From: Negativicoccus massiliensis
GTDB taxonomy: Bacteria; Bacillota; Negativicutes; Veillonellales; Negativicoccaceae
Length of the DNA stretch: 64,000 nt
Assembly: GCA_900155405.1 (NCBI GenBank)
Contig: LT700188.1
Location: 124,001 to 188,000 of the forward strand
Reading direction: 5' to 3'
Shown here: piece by piece, positions 26,803 to 41,117 of the stretch
Layout of the letters: each line of letters starts with the position of its first letter
Position numbering within the stretch: the stretch's first letter is position 1
Position numbers and translations under genes: made by a program
Notes under the pieces: model-generated
Seen by the model: only the letters and a program-made list of their open reading frames with translations
Database searches by the model: none
What the model was told of the DNA's origin: nothing

Positions 26803-27308
26803 TGTCTACGGATATGCTGGTGGTGGGCCGGATCGTCGCCGCGCATGGAGTGCGCGGTGAGGTACGGCTGAAACCGGACACGGACCGACCGGGGATGTTG
26901 ACGGCGTTGCCGCATCTTTACTTGGGCGGCAACCGTTACCAAATCCAAAGTGCGCGTTTTCATAAACAAATGCTGATTGTGCAGTTCAAAGGCATCGCTG
27001 ACCGCAATGCGGCCGATGCGTTAATCGGCCTTTGGGCGGAGCTTCCTCGCGAAGAACTGCCGCCGCGCGCGCAAGGACAATTTTATATTGTCGATTTGGT
27101 CGGCATGGAAGTCGTCACCGAAAGCGGCACCGTACTCGGTACCTTGCAGGAGGTTTTACAGCCGGGAGCCAACGACGTGTTTGTCGTGCGCGATGAACGC
27201 GAAGAAATTCTCGTTCCGGCGCTGAAACGCGTTGTGAGTGACATCGATCTCGATGCCAAACGACTCACGGTGACCGACGAGTTCTGGGCGAACTATCATG
27301 AAAATTGA
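26802..27308 (+). CDS. rimM: Ribosome maturation factor RimM
   Basis: Binds S19 and helps mature the 30S head. 168 residues. The N-terminal barrel opens with [20 protein letters not shown]; the PRC-barrel half has [34 protein letters not shown] and ILVPAL. It overlaps ylqD by one base and trmD by 11. A decayed copy of bases 26841-26913 occurs at 33866-33938. Confidence 0.95.
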
Positions 27309-29357: not shown

Positions 29358-29391
29358 CAAAAAAGACGATGCGAACGCATCGTCTTTTTTA
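29358..29391 (+). terminator. Terminator of the trmD-yebC operon (copy 1)
   Basis: AAAAAAGACGATGC and GCATCGTCTTTTTT around GAAC. An identical sequence occurs at 33953-33985 next to the true tracrRNA. Confidence 0.92.
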
Positions 29392-29540
29392 TTTTGAAAA
29401 ATAAATTGGTAACTGTAGTAAAGCAAGTCAAATGTAAAAAATAAAATGCAAGCACTAAAAAAACACTCCGAAGAGTGCTTTTAGACTACATAGGCAGAGC
29501 CCCGAAGGGCGATGTGGATAAATTTTTATTTGTACTCATA
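29358..29540. repeat. Segmental duplication, copy 1 (yebC terminator plus tracrRNA body)
   Basis: About 183 bases matching 33953-34136 in the same orientation with a few substitutions and one single-base indel. The first 38 bases are identical. The match fades inside the anti-repeat, near 29537. Confidence 0.92.
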
Positions 29541-29551
29541 GTACCATGCAT
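29457..29551 (-). ncRNA. Second tracrRNA-like sequence with diverged anti-repeat
   Basis: Minus-strand copy of the tracrRNA body at 34053-34147. The hairpin with GCCCTTCGGGGC and the terminator GCACTCTTCGGAGTG plus seven Ts are preserved with two changes. The 5' anti-repeat (bases 29528-29549) differs from the cas-side copy but can still pair with the CRISPR repeat start through several G-U pairs, with one A-A mismatch in the lower stem. No good -35 box is present on the minus strand, unlike the cas-side copy. It could be a weak second tracrRNA, a decoy, or a dead remnant. Confidence 0.55.
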
Positions 29552-29871
29552 ATAAAACAGTTGAAAGGCAAAAAAATGAAGATGCTGGTCAGGAAGAAAA
29601 GTATCTTCACTTTATCAGATGAGAAAATGTATGTACACGGGAAAATCTATCGACCAACTTTCCTTATTGTGTGATACCGACAATAGCATCTGCTCTACGT
29701 ACCCTATCTGCCCGGGGCGTACACTTCAAAGGGACGTTTTGACAATACCGTACTATGCAGGTAGTTGGTAATAGCATATGTCGAGTATTGCTTGTTCCGC
29801 TCGCAACCGATTTCGTGTGCAGCTTTGACGAGAATACAATTGAGTTTGGAAATAAAAGCATACAAACGTTA
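29552..29871. other. Intergenic region before the metal transporter
   Basis: About 320 bases without a supportable gene. A minus-strand frame (about 29863 to a stop at 29704) has protein-like composition (LVKAAHEIGCERNKQYSTYA) but no start with a ribosome site and no recognised family; it may be a gene remnant. Confidence 0.4.
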
Positions 29872-29900
29872 TTGAAAATCATTTTCATAAATGGTATAAT
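29872..29900 (+). promoter_or_regulatory. Promoter of the metal ABC transporter operon
   Basis: TTGAAA (29872-29877), 17 bases, TATAAT (29895-29900), with an extended -10 TGG. Predicted start near 29907 gives a leader of about 118 bases. Confidence 0.8.
29873..29887 (+). promoter_or_regulatory. Fur-type operator (7-1-7 inverted repeat)
   Basis: TGAAAAT, C, ATTTTCA is a perfect 7-1-7 palindrome like the minimal Fur-family box. It covers most of the -35 element, so a bound metallorepressor would block transcription. The regulator could be Fur, Zur or an MntR-like protein; none is encoded nearby. Confidence 0.65.
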
Positions 29901-29929
29901 ATGCAAGAATCAGTTCTGAACTCGAGCAA

Positions 29930-30010
29930 AGGTCGGTTGTATTATATCCTTACCTCTCTCAAACTATCGCCGCAAGGCGGGGCGGACTTTGCTCTGACGT
30001 TCGGGAAAAT
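29930..30010 (+). promoter_or_regulatory. Structured leader of the metal transporter operon
   Basis: GAGCAAAG near 29929 can pair with CTTTGCTC near 29988, enclosing an inner CGCC-GCAA-GGCG hairpin. I do not recognise a described metal riboswitch in it. It may simply be a structured 5' leader. Confidence 0.35.
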
Positions 30011-30024
30011 AAAGGAGGACATGT

Positions 30025-30975
30025 ATGAAAATTAGTTGGAAACAGATCGCGACAGGTATGCTTGCGGTGATGGTGATGGTGTTGGTCGGTTGTGGCGGTA
30101 CCAAAGATGATACGCATGCGGCCGCTCCGGGCAAATTAAAAGTGGTAGCGACGACGACGATGCTCGCGGATTTGAGCCGTCAGATCGGTGGCGATGCGGT
30201 AGAAGTAACCGGCTTAATGGGGCCGGGGGTGGATCCGCATTTGTATCAAGCCAGCGCCGGGGATGTCAAAGTGATGACGGATGCCGACGTCGTTGTATAT
30301 AACGGCTTGCATTTGGAAGGTAAGATGGGTGAAATCTTCAGTAAGCTGAAACAGGATAAAAAGGCTACTATTTGTGTAGCAAACAACTTAGATCCGTCGA
30401 CATTGCTTCAATATGAAGATGATGACGGAGTGCAGGCTACCGACCCGCATATCTGGTTTGACGTGAAGAACTGGATGCTGGCGGCGGAAGAAGTGTGCAA
30501 AGGATTGGCCGCGAAAGATCCGGCACACAAAGATTTGTACAAAGCCAATTATGAAAAATATTTGGCAGAGCTGAAAAAAGCGGACGAATATGTGGCCAAA
30601 CGTGCCGCGGAAATCCCGCAGGAGCGTCGCGTTCTCGTCACGGCACATGACGCATTCCAATACTTTGCTCGGGCGTACGGATTTACGGTCAAAGGTTTAC
30701 AGGGGGTCAGCACGGAAGCGGAAGCAGGCGCGATTGACGTTCGTGAACTGTCCGACTTCATCGTGACGCACCAGATCCGTTCGATTTTCGTCGAATCATC
30801 CGTTCCGCATAAAACCATTGAGGCGGTGCAGGAAGCTTGCAAGGCAAAAGGTTGGGACGTAAAGATCGGCGGCGAATTGTATTCCGATTCGTGCGGCGCG
30901 CCTGGTACTCCGGGTGGCGATTATATCGGTATGGTCAAAGAAAATATCGATACTATTGTTACGGGCCTGAAATAA
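30025..30975 (+). CDS. Metal ABC transporter substrate-binding lipoprotein (TroA/MntC-like)
   Basis: Captures Mn2+ or Fe2+ (possibly Zn2+) for import. 316 residues. The N terminus is a lipoprotein signal ending in LVGCG. Cluster A-I ligands can be read as His in DPHLYQ, His in DPHIWFD, Glu in STEAEAGA and Asp in LYSDSCG. A His-His-Glu-Asp set is typical of Mn/Fe-binding members, while Zn-binders usually have a third His and a His-rich loop, absent here. AAGGAGG precedes the ATG. First gene of a four-gene operon under a Fur-type operator; a hairpin separates it from the ATPase gene. Confidence 0.93.
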   Translation: MKISWKQIATGMLAVMVMVLVGCGGTKDDTHAAAPGKLKVVATTTMLADLSRQIGGDAVEVTGLMGPGVDPHLYQASAGDVKVMTDADVVVYNGLHLEGKMGEIFSKLKQDKKATICVANNLDPSTLLQYEDDDGVQATDPHIWFDVKNWMLAAEEVCKGLAAKDPAHKDLYKANYEKYLAELKKADEYVAKRAAEIPQERRVLVTAHDAFQYFARAYGFTVKGLQGVSTEAEAGAIDVRELSDFIVTHQIRSIFVESSVPHKTIEAVQEACKAKGWDVKIGGELYSDSCGAPGTPGGDYIGMVKENIDTIVTGLK

Positions 30976-33865: not shown

Positions 33866-33938
33866 ACGCATGGAGTGTGCCGTGAGGTACGACTGAACCT
33901 GTACGCGGACCGACCGGAGATGTTGGCGGTGCTGCCGC
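33866..33938 (+). pseudogene. Decayed fragment of rimM
   Basis: 73 bases aligning without gaps to rimM bases 26841-26913, with 12 mismatches by my count (about 84% identity). It is the segment just after the rimM start (from HGVRGEV to MLTALP). It has no start, an in-frame stop (TGA in the copied GTACGACTGAAC region depends on frame) and no continuation. Immediately afterwards comes the copy of the yebC terminator, so sequence between rimM and the yebC end is missing. Confidence 0.85.
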
Positions 33939-33952
33939 TTCCGAAAGGAAGA

Positions 33953-34136
33953 CAAAAAAGACGATGCGAACGCATCGTCTTTTTTATTTTGAAAAATAGA
34001 TTGGTAACTATAATAAAGGGCATCAAGATATGAAAAATAAAATGCGAGCACTAAAAAAACACTCCGAAGAGTGCTTTTAGTCTACATAGGTAGAGCCCCG
34101 AAGGGCGATGTGGATAAATCTTAATTTGAACTCGTA
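33953..34136. repeat. Segmental duplication, copy 2 (yebC-type terminator plus tracrRNA body)
   Basis: Direct copy of 29358-29540, 4.6 kb downstream and just before cas9. The leading terminator hairpin is identical to that of yebC, although no yebC gene stands in front of it. Confidence 0.92.
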
Positions 34137-34147
34137 GTGCATATCCT
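34053..34147 (-). ncRNA. tracrRNA of the type II-A CRISPR system
   Basis: On the minus strand, 5' GGATATGCACTACGAG (from about 34147) is an anti-repeat. It pairs with the repeat start: a seven-pair lower stem against GTTTGAG, a bulge of A opposite GAG, then GTAGTG/CACTAC and ATATCC/GGATAT. The body has a GCCC-TTCG-GGGC hairpin flanked by ACAT/ATGT, and ends in GCACTCTTCGGAGTG plus seven Ts. Expected length is about 95 nucleotides. A consensus minus-strand promoter lies at 34154-34182. Divergent to cas9. Confidence 0.9.
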
Positions 34148-34153
34148 GCCTAT

Positions 34154-34182
34154 ATAATAGCGATAAAAAAATAGTGTGTCAA
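34154..34182 (-). promoter_or_regulatory. tracrRNA promoter
   Basis: On the minus strand TTGACA (34182-34177), 17 bases, TATTAT (34159-34154). The predicted start falls at the first base of the anti-repeat. Confidence 0.88.
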
Positions 34183-34281: not shown

Positions 34282-34290
34282 TGCTATATT
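34282..34290 (+). promoter_or_regulatory. Probable extended -10 promoter of cas9
   Basis: TGCTATATT is a good extended -10; no -35 at normal spacing (TTGCAT is 24 bases upstream). It would leave a leader of about 138 bases before cas9. Confidence 0.45.
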
Positions 34291-34434
34291 TAATTTATCA
34301 GAGTAACAGATCAAAGCGGAGCGTCATTGATGGAATAGCGTGTCAGCGCGAGCAATATTATGGCAGTGATATAAAAATCTGCAGAAATTTTTTATTCTTT
34401 TAATCCGGCTGCGACGATGAGGAGGACTTTCGCA

Positions 34435-37400
34435 ATGAAGAAAAACAACGATTACTATATCGGTTTGGACATGGGAACCAATTCCGTCGGTTGGGCAGTT
34501 ACCGACACCAAGGGGCGTTTGCAGCGGTTCAATAAAAAAGACATGTGGGGCTCACGCCTTTTTGAGGAAGCGAAAACAGCCGCTGAGCGACGTACCTTCA
34601 GAACGTCGCGGCGTCGGTATGATCGCGTGAGACAACGCATCGAATTTTTGCAGGATATTTTCGCGCCGATCATCGCTAAAAAGGATTTTGAATTTTTTAT
34701 GCGTCTGAACGAAAGTAAATTTTATCCCGAAGACAAGAAGACGGATGGCCGCTTCGCCCTTTTTAATGATGCGGATTTTACCGACGTGGAATACTTTAAA
34801 CTATATCCCACGATTTACCATTTGCGCGCGGCGTTGCTTAAACCGAATCACATTACCGATCCGCGGTTATTGTACTTAGCCATTCATCATATTGTTAAAA
34901 ACCGCGGACATTTCCTGTTCGCCATCACAGATATGGAAAGTATTCGCAGCTTTCAAATGATCTATACGCAACTTTCCGAGCATTTGAAACGTATCAATCC
35001 GGATTTTGAATTGCCGGTGGATGTGCAAGATAAATTTGCCGCGATCTTACTGAATGAAGAACTGAACAAGCGGGACAAGAAAAAACAACTGAAGGAACTT
35101 TGCCCGCATGAGGATAAACGCTTGGAATACGCCTTTAAAGCGATTATCGGTGATAAAGCCAACTTGAAAGATATATTTGGCGTGGAAGAATATGATGAAG
35201 GCACGAAAAAAGAAGTCAACTTTGAAAAAGCGGACTACGACGCAGATAAAGACGAGATTGAGAGCGTAATCAAAGAAAATATCCATGTGCTTAACGCGTT
35301 GAAAGCGGTCTATGACTGGACTGTTTTGACGAAAATTTTAGGCGACTATGCGTATATTTCGGATTCGCAGGTCGCGCTTTATGATGCGCATGCAAAGGAT
35401 TTACGCATTCTGAAAAGCCTCATCAAAAAATATGCCAAATCGCAGTATGCGGACGCTTTCCGGCATGAGAACGTCAAGGGTAACTACGCCAACTATGTCG
35501 GCAGCACCAACTATGACAATAAACAACCGGTCATTGACAATCCGTCGGTAACGCAAGAAGACATAAATAAATATTTTGCAGCTATCCTTTCGGACATTAC
35601 TCCGGACGAAAGCGATAGAGAGAGTTATCAATATATCGCTGAGCGCTTAGATAAAGAAGAAGCGCTGCCCAAATTGCGCACGAAAGCTAACAGCGTGTTG
35701 CCGCACCAAATTCACAAAATCGAATTGGAAAAAATTCTGGCCAACGCCGCAATGAATTTTCCGTTCTTGCAGGAGAAAGATAGTAGCGGCTATACCGCAG
35801 CGCAAAAAATCGTCAAGATTATGACGTTCCGAATTCCGTACTATGTCGGACCGCTCAACACGTATCATCATGTCGATCAGGGCGGCCATGCATGGATGGT
35901 GCGCAAAGCGGAGGGGAAAATTACGCCTTGGAACTTTGACGAAAAAGTGGACAGAGAGGCTTCAGCGGAAAAATTTATCCGCAACATGACCAACAAATGC
36001 ACCTACTTGATCGGCAAGGACGTTATCCCCAAACAATCGCTGCTGTACAGCAGGTACAAAGTCCTTAACGAATTAAATAACTTAAAAGTTAACGGCGTGC
36101 CGATTTCGGTCGAGCTGAAACAGAAGATTTACGAAGAACTGTTCAAGAAACAAGTCAACGTCACATTCAAGCAACTCAAAACTTTTCTCAAAACGCAAGG
36201 GGAAGATGCTGACGAAATCATTTTAAGCGGTGTTGATGAAGCCGCGCATAAATTTACCAATAATCTTCAGACGTACCATAAATTCCAAGCGATATTTGGC
36301 GATACAATTGAATTTGAGCCGCAACGCTCCATGGTCGAAGATATTATTCGCTGGAAATGCCTGATGGGCGATGATATTGCCATGTGGAAACACAAGATCG
36401 AAAAAGAATATGGCGATCAGCTCAGCGATGAGCAATTGAAGCAAATCACGCGACTTAACTTCAACGGTTGGTCCCGTTTGTCACAAGAGTTTCTTACCGA
36501 TGTACCGGGCGTTGATATCGAATCCGGCGAGGTATACTCGGGGATTATGGACGCTTTGTGGAAAACGAATGAAAACGTTATGCAATTATTGAGTTCCCGT
36601 TTCACGTTTGCGGAAAAAGTAAAAAAACAAAACCAGGGTACCGGGCAGATCACAAAAATCACGTATGATGAAGTCATGAAAGATACTTACCTGTCGCCGG
36701 CGGTAAAACGCTCCGTTTGGCAGGCGATTACTTTAGTCGAAGAGATCCGCAAAATTCGCAAAGCGGATCCGAAACGCATTTTTGTCGAAATGACGCGCCA
36801 GCCGGACGTGATAAAGGAGCGCAAACTGTCTCGCCGTACGCAACTTTTAAGGACATATATAGCGATCGGAAACGACATTGCGGAATATGAAAAGGAACAT
36901 GTATCCACACTCATAAAGCAACTGGAAAGCAAAAAAGATGAAGATTTGCGGCAGAAAAAACTGTATCTTTATTTCACACAGATGGGACGTTGCATGTATA
37001 CGGGAGAGCGTATCGATCTTTCTTCCTTATTGCATGATACCAACAGTAACATCTACGATATAGATCATATCTACCCGCGTTCTCTTACGAAAGATGACAG
37101 TCTTGACAATACAGTCTTATGTAAGAAGGAGATTAACCTACAGAAAGGTAATAAGTATCTACATCAAGCTTTCACGGCAAAAGAACTCGAAAAGCAATAC
37201 GGATACTGGAAGGCGCTCAAAGAGAAAAAGCTGATCAGTGAAAGGAAATTTTCACGGCTCATGCGCACTACCGATCTCACCGCCGACGAATTGGCCGGAT
37301 TTATCAGTCGGCAATTGGTGGAAACCAGCCAAATGGTCAAAGCCACGGCGGATATTTTGGAAAAAATCTATCCGAATGTCACGATCGTTTACGTGAAAGC

Positions 37401-38610
37401 GCGGACTGTAAGTGACTTCCGTCATGATTATGATTTGCCGAAAGTGCGCGCCTTGAATGATTGTCACCATGCCCATGATGCGTACTTGAATATTGTCGTG
37501 GGGAATGTCTACTACGAAAAATTCACTAAAAGCCCGTTCCGCTTTATTCAAAACCAAAAGGGAAAGGGAGAAATCAAATACAATCTTTATCGCCTGTTTG
37601 ATAGAGACGTTAAAGTCGGCGATCGCATTATTTGGAACACCAAAGAAGATTTAGCGCACGTCAAAGCAACCCTCGAACGGGATACGGTAAATGTTGTACT
37701 CATGCCGGTAGAACGACACGGAAAGTTTTATGACGCAACCATTCAAAAGAAGAGCACCACAAAAGAAACAATGGTCCTGCCATTGAAAGGTTCTGATGAA
37801 CGCTTACAAGATATTTCCAAATACGGGTATTATCGCAGTCCATCCGGTATGTCATTTATGGTAGTTCAACACGAGGTTAAAGGTAAGAAACGAGTCACCA
37901 TCGAACAGGCTTTGCTGGTTTACAAAAATAAGTTAAAAAGCGAAAAAGATTACGCAAAATATTGCGAAGATTTTTTGAAGTTACAGAAACCGAAAGTATT
38001 ATTTAAAAACATAAAATTTGGCAGTAAGATTTTATTCGATGGATACCCATACCTTTTGAAAGGGCGAACGGGAAAGAAGATTACATTGGCGGATGCGCAA
38101 TCCCTATTTCTTTCCAACCGGGAGCTAAACATACTAAAAAGAGTTACCAAAATTTCCGATGATATTGATCACAAAGTGAAGAGTCGAGTGAAAATAACCG
38201 ATGAAGAGTGGGCTACACTGTGGAAGTCCGTGGTGGAGCAAAACGTTAAGGGTAAGTTTCGTGATCGCCTGGGAACTTTAAATGGAATACTAAAAGGTAG
38301 ACAAATTAAATTATCAGAAGATGAGCAAAAGAGAGTAAACGAACTGGATTCGAAGGATCAGGAAGAATATTTGAGCCAAATTTTATTAGAACGGTTTTTG
38401 CGATTCACCACAGAAGAAAAGACCCGGCTCTTACTTCAAGTGATTTCATTTAGCAGTAATACAAGAGGAGTGAACCTTTGCCTGATTGGCGGCAGTGAGA
38501 GAACGGGAACTATTGCGATCAGCAACAATATTACGGATCATTCGGTCATTTTGATTAATGAATCGCCCACCGGTCTCTTTACCAATCGTACTGTTTTGAA
38601 TCAGCCATGA
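34435..38610 (+). CDS. cas9: CRISPR-associated endonuclease Cas9 (type II-A)
   Basis: RNA-guided DNA nuclease. ATG at 34435 is chosen because GAGGAGGA lies 9 bases upstream and the protein begins MKKNNDYYIGLDMGTNSVGW; an ATG 18 bases earlier overlaps that site. 1,391 residues. RuvC-I Asp12; Arg-rich bridge helix ERRTFRTSRRRYDRVRQRIE; RuvC-II Glu785 (FVEMTRQPD); HNH His878 (YDIDHIYPRS); RuvC-III HHAHDAYLN with Asp1015. All nuclease residues are present, so it should be active. The C terminus (SPTGLFTNR) aligns with the end of S. pyogenes Cas9, but the Arg-x-Arg PAM-reading pair is not visible there. It overlaps cas1 by four bases. Confidence 0.98.
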   Translation: MKKNNDYYIGLDMGTNSVGWAVTDTKGRLQRFNKKDMWGSRLFEEAKTAAERRTFRTSRRRYDRVRQRIEFLQDIFAPIIAKKDFEFFMRLNESKFYPEDKKTDGRFALFNDADFTDVEYFKLYPTIYHLRAALLKPNHITDPRLLYLAIHHIVKNRGHFLFAITDMESIRSFQMIYTQLSEHLKRINPDFELPVDVQDKFAAILLNEELNKRDKKKQLKELCPHEDKRLEYAFKAIIGDKANLKDIFGVEEYDEGTKKEVNFEKADYDADKDEIESVIKENIHVLNALKAVYDWTVLTKILGDYAYISDSQVALYDAHAKDLRILKSLIKKYAKSQYADAFRHENVKGNYANYVGSTNYDNKQPVIDNPSVTQEDINKYFAAILSDITPDESDRESYQYIAERLDKEEALPKLRTKANSVLPHQIHKIELEKILANAAMNFPFLQEKDSSGYTAAQKIVKIMTFRIPYYVGPLNTYHHVDQGGHAWMVRKAEGKITPWNFDEKVDREASAEKFIRNMTNKCTYLIGKDVIPKQSLLYSRYKVLNELNNLKVNGVPISVELKQKIYEELFKKQVNVTFKQLKTFLKTQGEDADEIILSGVDEAAHKFTNNLQTYHKFQAIFGDTIEFEPQRSMVEDIIRWKCLMGDDIAMWKHKIEKEYGDQLSDEQLKQITRLNFNGWSRLSQEFLTDVPGVDIESGEVYSGIMDALWKTNENVMQLLSSRFTFAEKVKKQNQGTGQITKITYDEVMKDTYLSPAVKRSVWQAITLVEEIRKIRKADPKRIFVEMTRQPDVIKERKLSRRTQLLRTYIAIGNDIAEYEKEHVSTLIKQLESKKDEDLRQKKLYLYFTQMGRCMYTGERIDLSSLLHDTNSNIYDIDHIYPRSLTKDDSLDNTVLCKKEINLQKGNKYLHQAFTAKELEKQYGYWKALKEKKLISERKFSRLMRTTDLTADELAGFISRQLVETSQMVKATADILEKIYPNVTIVYVKARTVSDFRHDYDLPKVRALNDCHHAHDAYLNIVVGNVYYEKFTKSPFRFIQNQKGKGEIKYNLYRLFDRDVKVGDRIIWNTKEDLAHVKATLERDTVNVVLMPVERHGKFYDATIQKKSTTKETMVLPLKGSDERLQDISKYGYYRSPSGMSFMVVQHEVKGKKRVTIEQALLVYKNKLKSEKDYAKYCEDFLKLQKPKVLFKNIKFGSKILFDGYPYLLKGRTGKKITLADAQSLFLSNRELNILKRVTKISDDIDHKVKSRVKITDEEWATLWKSVVEQNVKGKFRDRLGTLNGILKGRQIKLSEDEQKRVNELDSKDQEEYLSQILLERFLRFTTEEKTRLLLQVISFSSNTRGVNLCLIGGSERTGTIAISNNITDHSVILINESPTGLFTNRTVLNQP

Positions 38611-39491
38611 GCTGGCGTACAGTTGTCATCACGAAACCTGCCAAACTCGAATTGCGTTTGAACTACTTGGTTGTTCGCAGCATCGACCATGTGGAAAAGA
38701 TAAGCCTGACGGAATTGGGAGCACTGGTGATCGAAACGCTGCAAGTGTCGATTACCAGCTCTCTCATCAGCGCGCTTTTGGCACAAGAAATCAGGATTAT
38801 CATTTGCGATGAACATCATGATCCGCAAGGGGAAATCCTACCTTACTACGGATGCCATGATTGCTCTCGCAAAATACAGATGCAAATGGGTTGGCAGGAG
38901 ACGACAAAGAAGCTTTTATGGCAACAAATTGTCCGACAAAAGATTATGAACCAACGGAAAACATTAGAATATTTTTGTTCGGATGCGACCGATGTGGTGG
39001 CGAAGCTGGCGCAGTATGAGACGCAAGTTGAAATCGGCGACGCCACTCATCGGGAAAGTCTCGTCGCCAAAGAATACTTTCCCGCGCTTTTGGGAAAAGG
39101 ATTTACGCGCGCTGCCGAGACGGCGCAAAATGCCGCATTGAACTACGGTTACCAAATTATCATTTCCATTTTTTCCCGTGAAATCAAAATTGCCGGTTAC
39201 CTTACCGAATTGGGAGTTTTTCATGACAGTCAGCATAATCATTTCAATTTGTCATCCGATCTTATGGAGCCGTGGCGACCGGTTGTAGACGCATTTGTCA
39301 GAGAAAAAGAATGGGAACAATTTGCCGTGGAGGAAAAACATATGATGCAACGTCTCGTGACGCAGGAAGTAACCTTTCGCGGGCAAAAGCAAAGCGTGCC
39401 TAACGCCATTCGCATGTACGTGAATTCGGTGTTTCAGGCGCTGAATCATAATGACATTTCGCAAGTGCATTTTTTCAACCATGAGTTATAG
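38607..39491 (+). CDS. cas1: CRISPR integrase Cas1 (type II-A)
   Basis: Catalytic subunit of the spacer integrase. 294 residues, typical of type II. MSWRTVVITKPAKLELRLNY is the family N terminus. Metal ligands can be read as Glu in HRESLVAKEYFPALL, His in SQHNHFNLSSDLM and Asp in DLMEPWRPVVD. Start overlaps the cas9 stop (ATGA). It works with Cas2 and Csn2 encoded next. Confidence 0.97.
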   Translation: MSWRTVVITKPAKLELRLNYLVVRSIDHVEKISLTELGALVIETLQVSITSSLISALLAQEIRIIICDEHHDPQGEILPYYGCHDCSRKIQMQMGWQETTKKLLWQQIVRQKIMNQRKTLEYFCSDATDVVAKLAQYETQVEIGDATHRESLVAKEYFPALLGKGFTRAAETAQNAALNYGYQIIISIFSREIKIAGYLTELGVFHDSQHNHFNLSSDLMEPWRPVVDAFVREKEWEQFAVEEKHMMQRLVTQEVTFRGQKQSVPNAIRMYVNSVFQALNHNDISQVHFFNHEL

Positions 39492-39801
39492 ATTTATGCG
39501 TATTTTAGTGCTCTTCGACCTGCCGACGGAAACGTCGCTGGATTTACGGGAATACAGACGGTTTCGCAAAATATTGCTGGAAATGGGATTTATTATGCTG
39601 CAGGAATCGGTCTATACGAAAATTGCGCTAACGACAACCATTTCCGAGCAAATTACCAATCGTCTGCGGCATGAAAAGCCGGCGAACGGATTGGTACAGA
39701 TATTGCGCGTGACGGAAAAACAATTTGAAAACATGGAAACGTTGGTAGGGGAATATAACAGCAACGTGATTGATACCGATGAAAAGGTGGTCATCCTATG
39801 A
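39481..39801 (+). CDS. cas2: CRISPR-associated Cas2
   Basis: Structural partner of Cas1. 106 residues from the ATG at 39481, which overlaps the cas1 end by 11 bases; MSYRFMRILVLFDLPTETSL matches type II-A Cas2 starts. An ATG at 39496 is the alternative. The ferredoxin-like fold shows as LVLFDLP and FRKILLEMGFIMLQESVYTK. Its stop overlaps csn2 (ATGA). No ribosome site is obvious, which suggests coupled translation. Confidence 0.95.
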   Translation: MSYRFMRILVLFDLPTETSLDLREYRRFRKILLEMGFIMLQESVYTKIALTTTISEQITNRLRHEKPANGLVQILRVTEKQFENMETLVGEYNSNVIDTDEKVVIL

Positions 39802-40463
39802 TCTTAAGCCACCCGGTTTTCGATGCGCCGATCGATCTTGCCCATAATAATCTCGTCGTTTTGGAACATCCGCTTCTGTACCGCGCATTGGTAGCGGAAT
39901 TAATTGCGCAAAGTGAAGGTGAAACGGGACGATTTCTTTTAATGGAAAATTATGAAGAAAAGTCGATTGGAAAATACCTTTCAATCATTCATAATCCATT
40001 TCGGCTATGCGAGAATGATCATAAAATGCGCACCGCCTTGTATAAATTACTTGAAAAAGAAGTACAGACGCTAGACTTTGAATATTACAAAGAAGTGGAA
40101 TCCAAGATACTTCAATTTTTGCAGCATGTAAGTATGCAATCCGCATATCCGCTCACGATGACAGATTCTATCAGCATGACAGATATCTTCAAACTGGGTC
40201 AATTGCAACTGGAATTAACCAAAGACTCCGTGCCGGAGCGTCTCTATGAATACATCCGCGCGTTGCACCGCTTGGCAGGCGCGCAATGCGTGGTTATGTA
40301 TAATGTAAGAAACATATTTACCGATACGGAAGCGGAGGTGTTTTTAAAAGAAATTAGCGAACAGGAATTATCTGTTTTGTTTTTGGAAAGGAGTGTGCCG
40401 CCTATCGTCACAAAATACGAGAAACTATATATAGTGGATCAGGATTTGTGTGAAATCAGCTAA
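39798..40463 (+). CDS. csn2: CRISPR adaptation protein Csn2
   Basis: Forms a ring on DNA ends during spacer acquisition and defines subtype II-A. 221 residues, the short Csn2 form. Recognisable pieces: MILSHPVFDAPIDLAHNNLV at the N terminus, LLMENYEEKSIGKYLSIIHN, KLLEKEVQTLDFEYYKEVES and YIRALHRLAGAQCVVMYNVR near the C terminus. The CRISPR array starts only 24 bases after its stop. Confidence 0.93.
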   Translation: MILSHPVFDAPIDLAHNNLVVLEHPLLYRALVAELIAQSEGETGRFLLMENYEEKSIGKYLSIIHNPFRLCENDHKMRTALYKLLEKEVQTLDFEYYKEVESKILQFLQHVSMQSAYPLTMTDSISMTDIFKLGQLQLELTKDSVPERLYEYIRALHRLAGAQCVVMYNVRNIFTDTEAEVFLKEISEQELSVLFLERSVPPIVTKYEKLYIVDQDLCEIS

Positions 40464-40487: not shown

Positions 40488-41117
40488 GTTTGAGAGTAGT
40501 GTCATATCCAATCCATCTCAAACCGAAAGAATTAGCGGACAGAAAAATCGACAGTTTGAGAGTAGTGTCATATCCAATCCATCTCAAACTAAGGCGGAGA
40601 AAAAGGACTTTACCCACCAGTTTGAGAGTAGTGTCATATCCAATCCATCTCAAACCTCTCTCCCTGCTTTCTGACTAAAGTATAAGTTTGAGAGTAGTGT
40701 CATATCCAATCCATCTCAAACGGCGGCAGCAGATTTTAGCGAAGATTAACGGTTTGAGAGTAGTGTCATATCCAATCCATCTCAAACGGCGGCAGCAGAT
40801 TTTAGCGAAGATTAACGGTTTGAGAGTAGTGTCATATCCAATCCATCTCAAACGGCGGCAGCAGATTTTAGCGAAGATTAACGGTTTGAGAGTAGTGTCA
40901 TATCCAATCCATCTCAAACGGCGGCAGCAGATTTTAGCGAAGATTAGCGGTTTGAGAGTAGTGTCATATCCAATCCATCTCAAACAGTTGCGGTCACCGG
41001 AGCGACCACCGAGGTGTTTGAGAGTAGTGTCATATCCAATCCATCTCAAACCTTCCAGCCGTGCTGTTTGGCAAGCATGAAGTTTGAGAGTAGTGTCATA
41101 TCCAATCCATCTCAAGC
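40488..41117 (+). CRISPR. Type II-A CRISPR array: 10 repeats of 36 bp, 9 spacers of 30 bp
   Basis: Repeats start GTTTGAGAGTAGTGTCATAT and end CCAATCCATCTCAAAC, at 40488, 40554, 40620, 40686, 40752, 40818, 40884, 40950, 41016 and 41082. The last ends CTCAAGC instead of CTCAAAC, so it is the distal end and the leader is on the csn2 side. All spacers are 30 bp. Spacers 4, 5 and 6 are identical and spacer 7 differs by one base (GATTAGCG for GATTAACG). The first and last eight bases of the repeat are inverted (GTTTGAGA/TCTCAAAC). Orientation agrees with tracrRNA pairing. Confidence 0.98.

Follow-up and report, generated by a model that had tools for sequence, protein, structure and literature searches.

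A tracrRNA-like sequence downstream of yebC in Negativicoccus massiliensis as a probable relic of an older type II-A CRISPR-Cas locus

Introduction

In S. pyogenes, transcription of the tracrRNA gene from a second promoter yields tracr-L, a natural single guide, which carries a guide to the cas promoter and represses that promoter (PMC11417352). The scaRNA of Francisella novicida, a transcription unit in which an array repeat is partly preserved, has been proposed to derive from a remnant of a CRISPR array (PMC6199352). Our search of the open-access literature for duplicate or pseudogene tracrRNAs found nothing that matches directly.

Here, we describe a second tracrRNA-like copy (copy 2) in a 64,000-nucleotide stretch of the N. 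massiliensis genome (the window). Copy 2 resembles a type II-A locus (cas9-cas1-cas2-csn2 with a tracrRNA gene) in having a tracrRNA body and terminator placed head-to-head with cas9, but no promoter was found for it, its anti-repeat is truncated and mutated, its cas9 is reduced to ca. 210 nt, and cas1, cas2, csn2 and an array are missing. As with tracr-L of S. pyogenes, more than one tracrRNA form is encoded per genome; however, copy 2 has neither a second promoter of the same gene nor a guide to the cas promoter. It is like the scaRNA of F. novicida in being a probable remnant of a CRISPR locus outside the live array, but what survives is a tracrRNA, with no start that can be recognised. A duplicated tracrRNA whose anti-repeat seems new can thus be what a deleted CRISPR-Cas locus has left behind. 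Before proposing a second tracrRNA, it is advisable to inspect the flanks for cas remnants and to set pairing energies against those of random windows.

Results and Discussion

Copy 2 Adjoins a Decayed cas9 Fragment

The live type II-A locus of the window comprises a minus-strand tracrRNA gene (body and anti-repeat, 34028-34150), the plus-strand genes cas9, cas1, cas2 and csn2 (34417-40463, recognised by Pfam and NCBIfam, with cas9 at 34417-38610) and a plus-strand CRISPR array (40488-41117) with ten 36-nt repeats, of which the tenth is degenerate. A repeat search within the window paired 29432-29542 with 34028-34138 (92% identity over 111 nt). As the earlier note had proposed, the minus strand of 29457-29542 thus repeats the live tracrRNA with body and terminator nearly unchanged. 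The body, which consists of nexus-like hairpins and the terminator (29457-29528, minus strand), is identical to that of the live copy at 68 of 72 positions and folds into near-identical hairpins, and the hairpin and T-run are preserved. It is followed by what is left of the inner part of the anti-repeat (29529-29542, minus strand), which, as sequence comparison revealed, is mutated by a T-to-A change in the lower stem, at a position where the live copy has T in each of the four genomes compared.

Directly upstream of copy 2, in the sense of the minus strand, lies a decayed fragment of cas9 that is absent from the earlier account. The repeat search paired 29616-29714 with 36979-37077, inside the live cas9, and tblastn matched Cas9 residues 855-893 and, in another frame, residues 828-903 to this stretch (best E value 6e-7, stops present). 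Local DNA alignment of the fragment gave a score of 157 against a shuffle maximum of 43. Its firm extent is 29552-29764 (plus strand), aligned with cas9 positions 36913-37128 in the HNH region, starting near codon 833 of the live gene, with 152 of 210 positions identical (72%) and six indels. The fragment contains stops, is frameshifted and has lost the DIDH motif of the HNH domain. Differences from the live cas9 are distributed as 22/15/21 over the three codon positions, whereas the live cas9 genes of the present genome and of a relative from another genus (G003) differ mostly at third positions (11/7/34). The even distribution in the fragment is the pattern of unconstrained (neutral) decay.

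Between the two relics there is a joint (29543-29551) that boundary tests assign to neither side, and the outer bases of the copy 2 pairing described in the earlier note lie within it. The idea that the whole outer anti-repeat is cas9 sequence was dropped, since the boundary test makes cas9 homology firm only from 29552.

Copy 2 on the minus strand and the cas9 remnant on the plus strand reproduce the head-to-head layout of the live locus. A cas gene remnant (29552-29764) is therefore found in the position and orientation expected of a degenerate locus, with disabling lesions (indels, stops and loss of the DIDH motif) and neutral substitution. We therefore consider it highly probable that copy 2, located just downstream of yebC, is a non-functional remnant of the left end of an older type II-A CRISPR-Cas locus. 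The II-A label follows from the class of the live locus and from the cas9 similarity; neither csn2, the II-A marker, nor an array has left a detectable trace in the remnant itself (29765-30030), and no cas remnants are detectable to the right of 29765.

Pairing of Copy 2 with the CRISPR Repeat

The earlier note held that the altered anti-repeat of copy 2 still pairs with the CRISPR repeat. A 10-nt pairing with three G-U pairs is indeed present in register, with an A-A mismatch in the lower stem, but its strength is that of a random sequence. The copy 2 anti-repeat pairs with the repeat at -9.9 kcal/mol, which is the median (50th percentile) of 3200 random 36-mers drawn from the window, compared with -23.8 kcal/mol (0.3rd percentile) for the live anti-repeat. 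Shuffling only the 5′ part of copy 2 that is not common to the live tracrRNA gave a mean of -10.2 kcal/mol. Cognate repeat/anti-repeat pairs of the present genome and its relatives lie between -23.1 and -25.4 kcal/mol (first 24 nt). In a co-fold with the complete repeat, a kind of check that the note had proposed, copy 2 is left unpaired, because the repeat's own hairpin wins. With the CRISPR repeat of this genome, the anti-repeat of copy 2 thus pairs poorly.

A strict in-register match of the outer five bases is expected for only ca. 0.8% of random 5-mers, and these bases are therefore probably a relic of a true anti-repeat. They differ from the perfect complement at three positions, and all three differences are transitions at A or C. 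Since transitions of A or C in an anti-repeat automatically leave G-U pairs (three out of three differences leaving such pairs are expected by chance in 29% of cases), a changed anti-repeat with pairing kept, which had been put forward as the mark of interest of this copy, is not evidence of selection. Copy 2 could in principle be an alternative tracrRNA that serves the present repeat via this weaker 10-bp pairing, and the in-register match, unlikely for a random 5-mer, would fit such a role. This is, however, exceedingly improbable given a pairing energy at the random median, the outcome of the co-fold and the failure to find a promoter upstream of copy 2.

Transcription Signals and Possible Partners

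The live tracrRNA is preceded on the minus strand by a σ70-like promoter-like site (34154-34182, TTGACA-17-TATTAT, 11/12 matches). A consensus scan, which covered σ70-like sites only, found none on the minus strand upstream of copy 2; the observation that the strong promoter of the cas-side copy has no counterpart here is thus confirmed. The identified neighbouring genes, yebC and znuA-C, are all located on the plus strand; therefore, there is no nearby source of read-through for the minus strand of copy 2. The relic would accordingly be expected to be untranscribed, and its RNA, if made, would match the current crRNA poorly. We see a slim prospect that a promoter unlike the consensus drives a small RNA in which the tracrRNA body is fused to cas9 sequence, and that this RNA binds Cas9 without crRNA. 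If this were true, a fossil CRISPR locus would tune its own successor. As it stands, the locus is most likely a fossil, a clean example and a useful caution, and its general interest is low unless RNA data reveal a transcript.

The genome (1.36 Mb, a single contig, 99.96% complete) contains one cas9 and one CRISPR array, and no site in it matches the repeat predicted to fit copy 2 with up to 3 mismatches. The anti-repeat of copy 2 does differ from that of the live copy, as would be expected if it served a different, unlinked array or Cas9 of the same genome, but the chance of such a partner is practically nil: the idea is refuted for the present genome, although it could be true for an ancestor. 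A search upstream of copy 2 for a tracr-L-like guide to the cas promoter gave a longest match of 9 nt, within the range of shuffles, and no repeat-like partner. No phage-borne tracrRNA copies were found among the viral contigs searched. A 28-nt match in contig C6 of G002, a genome from another genus, was rejected, as it covers only the terminator hairpin. The scan of genome contigs covered genera other than that of the window, and its matches came from the two other genera alone.

Comparison with a Sister Species

Conservation between species was assessed with one congener, the sister species G001. It keeps both tracrRNA copies at the same places, and its copy 2 has the same junction and the same cas9 remnant. 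The check on relatives suggested in the earlier note thus bears out the persistence of two copies, but not selection on the second: between the present genome and this one congener, the copy 2 body has 1 change in 72 nt and the cas9 remnant 1 change in 213 nt, so that conservation of the body does not exceed that of the dead sequence adjacent to it.

One observation speaks against a fossil. The body of copy 2 is 94-96% identical to the live copy, compared with 72% for the cas9 remnant, and so looks less decayed. This gap could be explained by ectopic gene conversion between the copies, by slow evolution of the live body or by weak selection. The first of these is hinted at by the sequence comparison: beyond the body, identity is 77% and 83% at orthologous positions and 84% between paralogous copies within a genome, while the shared tail contains four genome-specific sites versus one site of the cross (control) pattern.

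The lesser decay of the body would also be expected if copy 2 were transcribed and acted as a Cas9-binding sponge or regulator, in which an intact body binds Cas9 and a poor anti-repeat fails to load crRNA. The intact body and terminator hairpins and the retention of copy 2 in the sister species are in keeping with such a role. We nevertheless regard it as very unlikely, for there is no promoter-like site on the minus strand upstream, the plus-strand neighbours offer no read-through, and the body has been conserved between the species no better than the dead cas9 beside it. Among the options listed in the earlier note, the evidence (an adjoining decayed cas9, no promoter found, no matching array) points to a dead copy. 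An alternative tracrRNA, a decoy or a tracr-L-like regulator gains no support, as no promoter, matching array, match of a guide to the cas promoter or conservation beyond that of the cas9 pseudogene was found.

In both copies, the interval that separates the tracrRNA terminator from the yebC terminator (29395-29456 and 33990-34050) is far more diverged between the species than most of the surroundings.

Flanking Duplications and Proposed Origin

The yebC terminator hairpin forms the left edge of a duplicated segment (29358-29395, by repeat search), and a duplicate of this terminator segment is present at 33953-34018 (95% identical to 29358-29423). Farther to the left of the live CRISPR locus, there is a 75-nt plus-strand fragment of rimM (33867-33941, 84% identical to rimM positions 26842-26916). 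In both species, this fragment separates the live CRISPR locus from the zinc-transporter genes. In the normal order, rimM lies 2.4 kb upstream of the yebC terminator; in front of the live locus, the rimM fragment is likewise followed by the yebC terminator duplicate. The two copies have the yebC terminator, the tracrRNA body and the tracrRNA terminator in common.

This arrangement is most simply read as the duplication or import of a segment that reached from rimM through the cas locus, followed by a reciprocal reduction of the two copies, with opposite parts lost. The yebC-side copy would have lost the cas genes and the array. The other copy would have kept the cas genes and lost the part from rimM to yebC, leaving the 75-nt rimM fragment and the yebC terminator. 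On the yebC side, a deletion of ca. 2.8 kb fused the anti-repeat to cas9 at about codon 833. Codons 1 to about 832 of cas9 were lost in this way, together with the promoter and the outer anti-repeat; the remaining parts of the older locus have gone as well. The region would thus record how a type II-A locus of this lineage was duplicated locally and then underwent reciprocal loss. Related cas loci are present in G002 and G003, but the stretches fetched around these loci yielded neither yebC nor the zinc-transporter genes; these two genomes, therefore, do not settle the ancestral position.

The preserved hairpin and T-run of copy 2 might instead be all that has been retained, serving to terminate transcription between yebC and the zinc-transporter operon; a plus-strand terminator-like site has been reported for the equivalent hairpin of the live copy. 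We find this most improbable, since yebC already has its own strong terminator hairpin (29358-29391) and the nexus-like part would be needless.

A Probable Insertion in the Sister Species and Spacer Matches

The G001 sequence leaves homology with the present genome between the cas-side tracrRNA and cas9, with the breakpoint at 34285-34298 of the window, where there is a 14-bp overlap, ATATTTAATTTATC. In G001, cas9 is on another contig (L027:1-7348) than the tracrRNA (L020); the tracrRNA contig (L020:9711 onward) continues with a tyrosine-recombinase gene (L020:9850-10992, minus strand). Judging from this arrangement, a prophage has probably been inserted in front of cas9 in G001.

Spacers 4-7 of the live array (40722-40949) are one spacer present four times, one of the copies with one mismatch, i.e., a local array duplication. 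Spacer 3 (40656-40685), spacers 4-7 and spacer 9 (41052-41081) match the inserted DNA of G001 with 1-4 mismatches. The matching protospacers are followed by CGCAGT, CGCAGT and CACAGT, which suggests a possible PAM of the form CRCAGT.
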